Below are positions 20,994-41,108 of a DNA stretch of 41,758 nucleotides, in pieces. Made by a program: the position numbers and the translations under genes. The first letter of the stretch is position 1. Every line of letters begins with the position of its first letter. The notes beneath the pieces were generated by a model that ran no database searches, was not told where the DNA came from, and saw nothing but the letters and a program-made list of their open reading frames with translations. The stretch is from a virus, in IMG/VR virus record IMGVR_UViG_3300032893_000125, positions 1 through 41,758 of that record; one strand, 5' to 3'.

Positions 20994-21143
20994 TCAAGGG
21001 CCTACTCTATTCCCTACGCTATAAGGGAGGTCTCTCTTGCCACATCTTTTACAATAAAAACCTATGATTTTATCGAGTGGCCACCCATATTGGACGTTAT
21101 GCCCAAATATTTTACATAGAAATTGTTTCATTTTTACAATCAT
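20994..21143 (-). CDS. DUF1660-like mini zinc-ribbon protein
   Basis: 49 residues from the ATG at 21141-21143, chosen because AAGGTGG stands 6 nt upstream; longer in-frame starts lie inside the Mom-like gene without a ribosome site. The sequence MKQFLCKIFGHN ... FYCKRCGKRD shows the C-x-x-x-G-H ... C-x-x-C pattern of the short phage proteins classified as DUF1660. The first 32 nt overlap the 3' end of the Mom-like gene in another frame. Probably a zinc-binding peptide of unknown function. Confidence 0.65.
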   Translation of the reverse strand: MIVKMKQFLCKIFGHNVQYGWPLDKIIGFYCKRCGKRDLPYSVGNRVGP

Positions 21144-21693
21144 AATTAACCACCTTTTTGATAAATACAGTTTTAGGTCGTAAATTCTCTGTGTCCCAAA
21201 CTCGTTTCCCGCTCCAATTATCGGTTCCTTTCCCAGCAATACGTTTGCAGGTATACCCTTTAGTTTGTCCTGCTTTTACCCAACCTGCTCGGCGATAACA
21301 TTCCCCACTCCTTGGCAATTCTATAAGGGTTTCAAATGCGAGCACCTTATCGCCGTACTTGTCTTCCCAGTCTTTGACTATGGTTTTTTCAAACAATTCA
21401 ATTACTCTCGTTGTAAAATTTCTTATGGGATATTTACCATCTTTAGGTTCTACATGAAAAAAGATGTTGTTAACTATTTGATTTAAAATTGTTTTTGCTT
21501 CAATTCCTAACATATCATCCCTCCCAGGTAGAAACCTTGTCGCTGAGCCGCCTACGATATGTCCATAACAATGTCCATCGTGATAAACGGCATAGCAAAT
21601 ATTCCTGCCAACAAAACCTTTAGGCTGAGAATAGTGTCTTTTCATTTCCTCCAATAGTTGCGGCGATGTTCGTTTTACTACTATTAATTCCAT
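21112..21693 (-). CDS. Mom-like (GNAT-fold) DNA adenine modification protein
   Basis: 193 residues. MKRHYSQPKGFVGRNICYAVYHDGHCYGHIVGGSATRFLPGRDDM (18-62), RNFTTRVIELFEKTIVKDWEDKYGDKVLAFETLIE and GECYRRAGWVKAGQTKGYTCKR match the order of motifs I know from phage Mu Mom and the related DUF4338 proteins: HYs near the start, a strand with G-x-x-x-G, the 'tr-v-x-x-F-x-x-x-x-x-x-W' helix, an E-T-x-V/I-E strand, and 'G-x-x-Y-r-x-A-G-W-x-x-x-G-x-T-K-G'. Mu Mom converts adenine to N6-methylcarbamoyl adenine, protecting phage DNA from restriction. The assignment is by recalled pattern, so the exact modification is inferred. It lies just upstream of the surface-modification cassette. Confidence 0.65.
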   Translation of the reverse strand: MELIVVKRTSPQLLEEMKRHYSQPKGFVGRNICYAVYHDGHCYGHIVGGSATRFLPGRDDMLGIEAKTILNQIVNNIFFHVEPKDGKYPIRNFTTRVIELFEKTIVKDWEDKYGDKVLAFETLIELPRSGECYRRAGWVKAGQTKGYTCKRIAGKGTDNWSGKRVWDTENLRPKTVFIKKVVNYDCKNETISM

Positions 21694-21755: not shown

Positions 21756-22148
21756 TCACCACGCCAGGATGCAGATCGTCGGTACAATTCGAGTTATTAG
21801 GTCTGTTCTGACTTCTGCCGGATAATGTGGATCGGGATTCGCAGGCGCGTGAAACAGCCATTCCTGCGCTATAGACAAAGCAATCCATGACAGTCCGGCT
21901 ATCCACTTGCCCTTCGTTCCTCCAATCTTTTCGCCTAAAAGCGGGATCGCCAGAGACCAGCCGATATGAGCCATAGCATTGGTCGTCGCGCCGTCACCGT
22001 CGCCTAGGTTAGTAAACGGTCCTGGCCCGGTCACCGGTAGATAAGGACGGTAGCCGAACATCCCAAAAGACTGGAGCGGCGTAAGTCCTCCAGCATTCGC
22101 TGACGCGGAGAAGAGAGATAACAATACTGCGATTATTGTAGCCTTCAT
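21756..22148 (-). CDS. Secreted or membrane-associated protein with signal peptide, unknown
   Basis: 130 residues, ATG preceded by TAAGGAGG. The N-terminus MKATIIAVLLSLFSASANAGG has the charged start, hydrophobic core and ANA-G cleavage site of a signal peptide. The mature protein contains AHIGWSLAIPLLGEKIGG and a second hydrophobic segment (WIAGLSWIALSIAQEWLF). The recurrent 'AHxxWsxxlPllG...G..Gk..Ag..Wia.sl.qEwlfH' layout is known from uncharacterised small phage envelope proteins. Its 5' leader is the structured-RNA candidate region, so it may be the gene that element controls. Function unknown. Confidence 0.65.
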   Translation of the reverse strand: MKATIIAVLLSLFSASANAGGLTPLQSFGMFGYRPYLPVTGPGPFTNLGDGDGATTNAMAHIGWSLAIPLLGEKIGGTKGKWIAGLSWIALSIAQEWLFHAPANPDPHYPAEVRTDLITRIVPTICILAW

Positions 22149-22173
22149 AGCAAAAAATCCTCCTTAAAAATGT

Positions 22174-22366
22174 GGTACTGACGAGGAAGGCGGGACGATT
22201 GGCTCGTGAGGATAAAGGGAGGAAAGCGTCATCTTGTCGGCTCGCAGTTGTTATTCTCGGGGGTTGCCGACTCACGCTCGAAACCTCACGTCGCTCTTAT
22301 TGGTATCCCGCCTTCCCTGAGGGTCTTCGCCGTGTTTCAGGCTCGCCTCATTTTCCCGTCAGTACC
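22174..22366 (-). ncRNA. Candidate structured RNA with nested perfect stems
   Basis: The ~250-nt gap between the genes at 21756-22148 and 22400-22585 has no credible gene but holds five nested perfect pairings: P1 22174-22183/22357-22366 (GGTACTGACG, 10 bp), P2 22185-22195/22306-22316 (GGAAGGCGGGA, 11 bp), P3 22205-22211/22284-22290 (CGTGAGG, 7 bp), P3b 22225-22229/22274-22278 (AGCGT) and P4 22236-22241/22266-22271 (GTCGGC, 6 bp). A side hairpin P5, TGAGG/CCTCA (22318-22322/22346-22350), lies between the 3' arms of P2 and P1. The fold is a long rod with a side branch. The strand is not determined; minus is given because the neighbouring genes read that way, where it would be the leader of the signal-peptide gene or a separate RNA. 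I recognise no named RNA class. Confidence 0.6.
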
Positions 22367-22368
22367 TA

Positions 22369-22393
22369 GCACTCATATTATCACTATGAGTGC
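22369..22393 (-). other. 8-bp hairpin flanking the structured-RNA candidate
   Basis: GCACTCAT (22369-22376) and ATGAGTGC (22386-22393) form a perfect 8-bp stem with a 9-nt loop, 2 nt beyond the closing stem P1. It could be an extra domain of the RNA or, read on the minus strand, a barrier at the end of the upstream gene. There is no clear U-tract on either strand. Confidence 0.5.
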
Positions 22394-22399
22394 CGAAAG

Positions 22400-22585
22400 T
22401 CAATTCTGTTCTTTTCCAGCTTCGATATAAATCACTTCCGTGAGATACTCGCCTTCCGGTGTTTGCGTATACCAGCCTTCCTTGCTGTCCAAGATAGTGT
22501 GAGCCGCGTCCTTCCGAGAGAGGCCTTTCTCCGCCTGCAGCGCCTGAATCTTGTCTTCCATCTGCTCACCCATGCTCTTGTACAT
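22400..22585 (-). CDS. Small soluble protein, unknown
   Basis: 61 residues from the ATG at 22583-22585, chosen because AGGAGG stands 8 nt upstream; an earlier in-frame start lies within the promoter. The sequence MYKSMGEQMEDKIQALQAEKG opens with an acidic amphipathic helix and ends with a short beta region (GWYTQTPEGEYLTEVIYIEAG). It is the first gene after the TTGACT/GATACT promoter. I do not recognise a family. Confidence 0.65.
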   Translation of the reverse strand: MYKSMGEQMEDKIQALQAEKGLSRKDAAHTILDSKEGWYTQTPEGEYLTEVIYIEAGKEQN

Positions 22586-23051: not shown

Positions 23052-23099
23052 AAGAATAAAAATAAAAAAGGCGAGGGCTTTCGACCCTCGCCTAAAAAA
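23052..23099 (-). terminator. Intrinsic terminator after the major capsid gene
   Basis: Perfect 9-bp GC-rich stem AGGCGAGGG (23069-23077) / CCCTCGCCT (23085-23093) with a 7-nt loop. On the minus strand it is followed by TTTTTTATTTTTATT. A-runs on the other side make it potentially bidirectional. It ends the packaging/capsid transcript 16 nt past the capsid stop codon. The rest of the gap up to 22,936 shows nothing else but one CACCGGG copy at 23,040. Confidence 0.9.
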
Positions 23100-23114: not shown

Positions 23115-24422
23115 TTACTGTGACAGAGTCACGTTCATATTCCAGCCCGGGGCCCTACAAATAAGGTTCCCGTAATAGCCAATACGAATCTCGAGCGCAT
23201 CCGCCGTTCCGACACGCAGGCCTTCGAGACCTTCCATGCCGTACGTGAGGATGTGCGGGATCTTACCGAGCGACTTCAGCTTCCACGTATTCATCGTGAG
23301 GAGGAAGCAGGTCGTCGGAGGACACGAACGGTCAGCAAGCACCGTGACGCGGCCGTAGGCGCTCTGGAAAGTGATACCTTCGAAAGCGACTTCGACTTCG
23401 TCGTGCTTAACCTGAACATACTGGACCTTGGCTCCGAGCGCGTTGACGAGAGCGGCATAGGACGCGAAGTCCATAATCGCCAAGTCAAATTTCGCACCTT
23501 CGCGAGCGCCGAAGGCAAGCGCATTGGTCATGCCTTCTTCGATCGTGTAGGAGCTAGCGTCGTAGCGGAGGCCGCCGAGACGGGTCGGATCAGCGGTTCG
23601 GTCAACACCCCAGAAGGTCGTAGCCGACACACCGGCCGCAACGCTCGGGATCCAGGCGCTAAAGCCCGTAAGAGCGTTGAAGGAGGTCGTCGAAGACGCA
23701 CCACCCGACGGGAGGTCACCGAGCACCGAAAGGTACGCAGAACCAGCTCCGATCGCCCACTTAGCGTCGAGCGAACCGGTCGAAGCCGTGCCGGTGATCA
23801 CACCGGTCGCCCGGTTGACCTGCGTAATGGTGACGTAATCGCTCGTAGGAGCGCCACCAGCCGAGCTAGAAGCGCAAATCGTCATGCCAACTTCGAAGTT
23901 GACAATCTGCTGCGCGTTAGCGAGCGGGAGCACCGTTCCACTGGCGACCGTGCCATTCTGCGTCGAGGCAGAGGTCGTGTTACCACGATTGGAGGTACCG
24001 TCGGCGAACAATTCAAATGCGATGTTGTTCGTGATCGAGCGGAAGCCGCCATCCATCTGGAGTTTCGCAGCGTCGACGAACGCACCGGCGTTGGTCTTCG
24101 TCTGCTCCATCAGGAGGTTCGTGATCGTGACGAGCTGGTAGTCAGAGATAACGTACACGAAGAACGACGCCAGAGAGGCAGCAGTCTGCTGGTTCTGAGC
24201 ATTGCTGAACGTGTGCGAACGTCCCTGCGGATTACCGTATTCGAGTGGGACCGGGATGTATTTACCGGCAAACCCGTCGGTAGACTCGTCTTTCGGAACA
24301 AGCGCGAAAGCAGGATTCTCTTTGTAGACTAGATCCTGCATGTATTCTTTGTCGTCTTTGTACAATTCTTTCAAAGACGCCAACTGGTTGGTACTATTGG
24401 CATAAACAGCTGAGGGACTCAT
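23115..24422 (-). CDS. Major capsid protein
   Basis: 435 residues, ATG with AAAGGA upstream. Composition and layout fit an HK97-fold capsid protein of the podovirus/P22-like kind: an N-terminal helical arm (ASLKELYKDDKEYMQDLVYKENPAF), a segment PVPLEYGNPQGRSHTFSNAQ, a long spine helix region (FVDAAKLQMDGGFRSITNNIAFELFADGT), a Thr/Ser/Gly-rich insertion (about 150-235), and a C-terminal domain with FDLAIMDFASYAALVNALGAKVQYVQ and a final beta strand. It sits directly downstream of the scaffold gene and is followed by a strong terminator, as usual for capsid genes. Codon use is regular and GC-rich compared with the accessory island. Confident. Confidence 0.88.
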   Translation of the reverse strand: MSPSAVYANSTNQLASLKELYKDDKEYMQDLVYKENPAFALVPKDESTDGFAGKYIPVPLEYGNPQGRSHTFSNAQNQQTAASLASFFVYVISDYQLVTITNLLMEQTKTNAGAFVDAAKLQMDGGFRSITNNIAFELFADGTSNRGNTTSASTQNGTVASGTVLPLANAQQIVNFEVGMTICASSSAGGAPTSDYVTITQVNRATGVITGTASTGSLDAKWAIGAGSAYLSVLGDLPSGGASSTTSFNALTGFSAWIPSVAAGVSATTFWGVDRTADPTRLGGLRYDASSYTIEEGMTNALAFGAREGAKFDLAIMDFASYAALVNALGAKVQYVQVKHDEVEVAFEGITFQSAYGRVTVLADRSCPPTTCFLLTMNTWKLKSLGKIPHILTYGMEGLEGLRVGTADALEIRIGYYGNLICRAPGWNMNVTLSQ

Positions 24423-24440
24423 ACTGTTCCTTTCTATACA

Positions 24441-24481
24441 CCGGTGCGAATGATTCCGTTTTCAGGAACCCTGTCGCATCG
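24441..24481 (-). other. Hairpin in the leader of the major capsid gene
   Basis: CCGGTGCGA (24441-24449) pairs with TCGCATCGG (24474-24482 region) over 9 positions with one G-U wobble, and inside it TTCC (24454-24457) pairs with GGAA (24465-24468). It lies about 20 nt upstream of the AAAGGA ribosome site. No U-tract follows, so mRNA stabilisation or processing of the capsid message is more likely than termination. The upstream half of the 125-nt gap also carries a TTGACT string without a good -10. Confidence 0.45.
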
Positions 24482-24547
24482 GCATTTGTTATTGGTTTAG
24501 GCTTATGATCTACTTTAAGAAGTCAAAACAAGTATTTATGACCTCTT

Positions 24548-40988: not shown

Positions 40989-41004
40989 GGTAGCTCCTGT
41001 AAAA

Positions 41005-41067
41005 ATCCCGATCGGGATGTTTCACGTATCATGAATCATGATTTGTAATAAAACATCCCGATCGGGT
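41005..41067. promoter_or_regulatory. Pair of CCCGATCGGG operator-like palindromes, 50 bp apart
   Basis: ATCCCGATCGGGAT (41005-41018) is a perfect 14-bp palindrome, and a second copy ATCCCGATCGGGT lies at 41055-41067. With flanks they form an inverted pair (CCCGATCGGGATGTT and AACATCCCGATCGGG). Centres are exactly 50 bp apart, about five helical turns, so two bound dimers would face the same side. They fill the 120-nt gap before the primase-helicase. A clear -35/-10 pair was not identified between them, though an ATCATGA direct repeat lies there. Confidence 0.75.
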
Positions 41068-41108
41068 CGCGGGCGGACAGCGCAAAGAAAAAGCAGAAAA
41101 AGAGTTAA

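Follow-up and report, generated by a model that had tools for sequence, protein, structure and literature searches.

A folded element of 193 nt in the accessory region behind the major capsid gene of virus record IMGVR_UViG_3300032893_000125 is, on balance, probably a structured 5' leader; it would head the mRNA of a late, accessory ('moron') transcription unit encoded by the minus strand. This reading makes the fewest assumptions, because the predicted transcription start matches the base of a helix and a Shine-Dalgarno sequence (SD) follows the end of that helix. It is also favoured because the strand agrees with the strength of the fold and with the direction of the genes. All clear genes of the window (the whole stretch of DNA analysed, 41,758 bases) are on the minus strand, including those for terminase, portal, major capsid protein, tail, DNA polymerase A and primase/helicase.

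Position of the element between a predicted promoter and a ribosome-binding site

The intrinsic terminator after the capsid gene sets it apart from the accessory unit and lies about 670 nt from the promoter of the element (Table 1). Among the related phages compared, the region behind the capsid gene varies from one phage to the next. The earlier note on this DNA had placed the element in a gap devoid of credible genes and in front of a signal-peptide gene, and both descriptions hold. Searches of the gap against protein families gave no match at a convincing level, and a protein-coding reading was rejected on that ground. The first gene after the leader starts with an ATG at 22148 (minus strand) and codes for a protein with an apparent signal peptide. 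This gene and the other flanking gene (22400-22582) are both orphans for which no relatives were found.

A nearby gene called 'Mom-like' (21112-21693, minus strand) has only a sub-threshold Pfam match, to DruA (E 5e-4). Its relatives in six other viruses share 59-76% identity with it, and all six viruses lack the RNA element.

Table 1. Coordinates of the element, its surroundings and the leader motifs of capsid genes (window positions unless a locus is named)
Feature	Position	Strand	Remarks
Structured RNA	22174-22366	minus	193 nt: P1, side hairpin, rod P2-P5, 24-nt apical loop
P1	22366-22357 with 22183-22174	minus	10 bp
P1, 5' arm GGUACUGACG	22357-22366	minus	1-2 nt or less from predicted transcription start
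P1, 3' arm CGUCAGUACC	22174-22183	minus	
P1a (side hairpin)	22318-22350	minus	
P2, perfect core	22316-22306 with 22195-22185	minus	11 perfect pairs
P2, full arms	22317-22305 with 22196-22184	minus	13 pairs including two G-U
P3	22290-22284 with 22211-22205	minus	7 bp; 5' arm CGUGAGG
P4	22279-22274 with 22229-22224	minus	5 Watson-Crick pairs and one G-U
P5	22271-22266 with 22241-22236	minus	6 bp
P4 and P5, 5' arms together	22266-22279	minus	
UCCUCC	22218-22223	minus	unpaired internal loop; complementary to SD core GGAGGA
UUUUU tract	22166-22170	minus	3 nt after P1; weak terminator or linker
SD AAGGAGGA	22158-22165	minus	strong; of the 130-aa gene
130-aa orphan protein	21756-22148	minus	apparent signal peptide; first gene after leader; no relative found
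Sigma70-like promoter	22375-22403	minus	TTGACT - 17 nt - TAATAT, TG before second hexamer (extended -10); consensus match only
Palindrome GCACTCATA-7-TATGAGTGC	22369-22393		9 bp; overlaps -10 box; operator-like
Intrinsic terminator	23069-23093	minus	after major capsid gene
Major capsid gene	23115-24422	minus	
Capsid-leader motif, window copy	24439-24485	minus	directly upstream of capsid gene
Capsid-leader motif, other copies (among others)	L002 5933-5977; L029 9935-9979; L016 9935-9978; L030 9933-9977		
Second capsid-leader motif	L020 ~9864; L025 ~9878; L026 ~5587; L053 ~9883; L006 ~7621; L071 ~9062		

The sigma70-like promoter reported in the earlier note was retrieved by consensus (9/12 positions). 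There are two extended -10 promoters with a TTGAC box in 15 kb and five in all 41.8 kb. Comparable sites that lack the TG are frequent (18 vs 13 expected in 15 kb). From this predicted promoter, we infer transcription of the element; the predicted start is A22367 or G22366 (minus strand), at the base of P1. The 8-bp hairpin previously described as flanking the element exists as a palindrome of 9 bp. However, it is probably an operator acting at the DNA level, outside the RNA, because of its position, which is upstream of the predicted start and shares bases with the -10 box. It is unique in the window, with 0.03 occurrences expected by chance. We rejected the idea of an operator common to other viruses, as the exact matches found elsewhere are in unrelated contexts.

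The stems listed in the earlier note, i.e. nested helices of 10, 11, 7, 5 and 6 bp and a side hairpin, are all present, P4 having 5-6 bp. P1, P1a and P2 form a three-way junction. In the predicted transcript, pair probabilities are near 1 for P1 and most of P2-P5 and slightly lower for P1a. P1 closes at 22174, 9 nt before the SD, and is followed by ACAUUUUU, then by the SD AAGGAGGA and the ATG. Thus, the element has on one side a promoter, recognized by consensus only, and on the other the ribosome-binding site of a gene that runs in the same direction. The accessibility of the SD varies with the length of coding sequence folded: it is 0.44-0.76 unpaired, or about 79% paired with the coding region. 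Pairing of the UCCUCC loop with the SD might possibly serve as a switch, but it is not significant; we set aside SD capture by this loop, given that a hexamer of this type turns up in 8% of shuffles and that, by rough geometry, the loop sits ~30 bp up the rod.

The pairing of the 5' and 3' ends exactly to each other, as in 6S or tmRNA-like molecules, could also be that of an independent small RNA that acts in trans on the host or the phage; it would measure ~195-200 nt and would either stop at the UUUUU tract or be excised by a nuclease. Such an RNA would have a promoter of its own and a U-tract 3 nt beyond P1. We nevertheless consider it rather unlikely: terminator prediction called none at this tract, which is short, the arms of P1 are much too distant from each other for an ordinary intrinsic terminator, the SD and the start codon come at once after the element, and Rfam gives no match. 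An mRNA leader fits better, as the element begins where transcription is predicted to start and ends 9 nt short of the SD.

Chance, strand and the mobile-element reading

The earlier note considered the complementarity to exceed chance in a gap this short, and shuffling bears this out. When the gap was put through 3,000 dinucleotide shuffles, one shuffle gave a nested pair of 10 and 11 bp and nine gave a helix of at least 11 bp. The rarity holds for the gap and not for the whole window: of 60 shuffles of the entire 41.8 kb, 15 contained nested pairs of 9+9 bp or more. The z score of folding of the 261-nt region is -5.17 on the minus strand (0/200 shuffles as good) vs -2.73 on the plus strand, and that of the 193-nt core is -4.3 vs -2.6. 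The background was established with 416 sampled 200-nt windows on both strands (mean -0.39, sd 1.35). The fold is confirmed as real and unlikely to be due to chance. The RNA strand looks to be the minus strand, where the fold is better and where every clear gene is found.

It is unlikely that the fold has arisen by chance, devoid of RNA function, in a fast-changing accessory region. That reading gains from the nil conservation in homologue searches, from the choice of the element after the fact in a 41.8-kb window and from other windows of the scan, some of which reach z scores of -4 to -6. In contrast, nested helices at a frequency of ~1 in 3,000 for this gap and the coincidence of the ends with the promoter start and the SD argue against a chance fold.

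The earlier note had also raised a decayed mobile element. The terminal inverted repeats of such an element are present: the ends harbour imperfect inverted repeats (15 nt at 87%), which would make the outer stems those of a relic of a small, MITE-like element. Its G+C content of 57% vs 50% for the window and its orphan surroundings point the same way. However, the junctions (AGTGCTA / ACATTTT) show no direct duplication of a target site, and neither the window nor its relatives contain another copy. In addition, transposon ends would have no need of the side hairpin and the four nested helices inside, and the ends match the promoter and the SD too neatly; we therefore hold a relic of this kind to be very unlikely.

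The strongest fold of the window scan lies elsewhere, directly upstream of the primase/helicase gene (40990-41090, minus strand; z -6.4 in the scan and -3.95 in another run). It is a near-perfect palindromic hairpin of ~19 bp, CCCGATCGGGATGTTT...AAACATCCCGATCGGG, followed by TTTTT, and may be a terminator or a replication/segregation site.

Homologue searches and the leaders of capsid genes

The absence of a recognizable class in the earlier note agrees with our Rfam 15 scan of the whole window. No family reached its gathering threshold, including 6S, pRNA, riboswitches, group I/II introns, HEARO, GOLLD and ROOL. Permissive thresholds gave only two chance matches, with bits far under threshold. 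The element is absent by blastn from 78 fetched loci with related capsid genes, and blastn searches of phage, plasmid and E. coli collections found no relative either. A one-sequence covariance model, a method weak for diverged relatives, found none in 88 related phage records. Patterns back-translated in two frames for IMG/VR and in one for GTDB, which by our own estimate are dependable only for close copies (about >=90% identity), gave no match, and searches via the flanking genes yielded no closer phage. Neither a reverse transcriptase gene, as for a retron ncRNA, nor a TnpB-like nuclease, as for a TnpB/Cas12f guide RNA, was found near the element in this record, which may be a fragment. 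The nested stems found after the capsid gene in locus L024 were rejected as a relative: they are inside a coding sequence, and shuffled versions fold just as well.

The earlier note had proposed a candidate new class of structured RNA, and the covariance-model search that it suggested gave no homologue in the 88 related phage records. Such a class, i.e. phage RNAs of ~193 nt with a three-way junction and one helix for both ends, with a regulatory role or an action beyond their own mRNA, is unsupported, as the searches yielded no homologues in which covariation could be seen; we judge it improbable.

The same phage group has a small conserved RNA motif directly upstream of the capsid gene, common to about 20 related phages. 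It is laid out as a P1 helix of its own, a short internal loop, P2, an internal loop and a P3 hairpin, and the second internal loop has CAU or CAG on its 5' side and an invariant AU on its 3' side. Its helices show clear compensatory changes: the covariation score of 14 sequences is 0.61, vs 0.24 for shuffles and <=0.14 for slid partners. The outer helix is kept in 14/14 sequences despite differing letters. It has 4.6 pairs on average vs 1.6 when the arms of different phages are combined, a favourable figure because each sequence had been trimmed to that helix. A model of the motif matched 19 loci, in each case immediately before the capsid start, and had no other match at E <=1; many of these sequences also built the model, so the matches are not independent, but their positions are still informative, and 14 of the 19 rows are distinct. 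Rfam has no match to the motif in the window or in eight loci. The motif is a candidate autoregulatory operator and a stronger candidate for a new RNA family than the element described here. This result indicates that, given a conserved RNA, comparison among these phages is able to reveal it; the motif also makes the control of capsid synthesis in the group directly testable.

Phages lacking this motif have a second recurrent one in the capsid leader, in which GUGAGUC, a short hairpin and CAGUAA are set inside an outer stem (11 matches, two of which look unrelated, and none in shuffles). A link between the element and capsid-leader 'type B' through a shared heptamer, GUGAGUC, was rejected; the element gives no match with R2, the model of capsid-leader type A.

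Other structures were observed in related loci. After the capsid terminator of L002 (7274-7486), a long hairpin between an AAGGA SD-like site and the ATG would join the two, as known for T4 genes 38 and 25 (PMC3014915). In L011 (5194-5416), a very stable hairpin (gap z -12.4, terminator included) has a GGAGG ribosome-binding site in its 3' arm and precedes a gene product starting with MKNLIVA; this looks like translational masking. The match of the capsid gene is stretched by ~500-650 bases in many relatives (L022, L033, L039, L041, L047, L055-L058 and others), suggesting introns or inteins. Small GIY-YIG-like or HNH-like genes often come after the capsid gene in related phages.

Putative roles of the element as a leader and known RNA systems

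As a leader, the nascent RNA would fold and bury its own 5' end in helix P1, which could protect the mRNA from 5'-end-dependent decay. P1 would also isolate the ribosome-binding site, and expression would be steady for the signal-peptide gene and for the moron genes that follow. This protective and insulating mechanism is proposed by analogy with known leader biology in T4 and P22 (PMC3014915, PMC8835761). A regulated variant, with a protein or a metabolite binding the junction or the large loop, is conceivable. Other folded leaders are found in the same phage group, namely the capsid-gene motif with its covariation and the hairpins of L002 and L011. If the element is a leader, it illustrates clearly, though in a single case, how accessory genes inserted behind a capsid gene arrive with a promoter, an operator and a folded mRNA start of their own. 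Few studies have dealt with long phage leaders (PMC8835761). The significance of the element would rise with homologues showing compensatory changes.

The resemblance to 6S RNA or phi29-type packaging RNA evoked in the earlier note is one of shape only (a rod, paired ends and internal loops), and the element matches neither family in Rfam. The put RNA of phage HK022 is likewise structured and stands right at the beginning of its transcript; it is about 70 nt long and has two stem-loops that bind RNA polymerase (PMC9378689). A put-like nascent RNA would modify RNA polymerase and cause terminator read-through for the operon behind. The element would be suitably placed, ahead of a co-directional gene run, like putL just downstream of PL (PMC9378689). 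However, put is much shorter than the 193-nt element with its three-way junction, and no terminator was found directly behind the latter; we do not assign it to the put RNAs and regard this mode of action as quite improbable.

The leader reading has closer parallels among phage mRNAs. Those of T4 genes 32, 43, 38 and 25 are controlled by leader structures (PMC3014915), and in T4 the fold of the leader sets translation or stability. The T4 elements are much smaller, and protein ligands are known for genes 32 and 43. The ORFan gene pid of phage P22 has its own promoter and a 174-nt 5' UTR (PMC8835761). The pid leader is tied to a processed mRNA species rather than to a defined fold (PMC8835761). 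Like pid, the 130-aa gene is an accessory orphan in a tailed phage, with a predicted promoter of its own and a long leader, here of about 218 nt.
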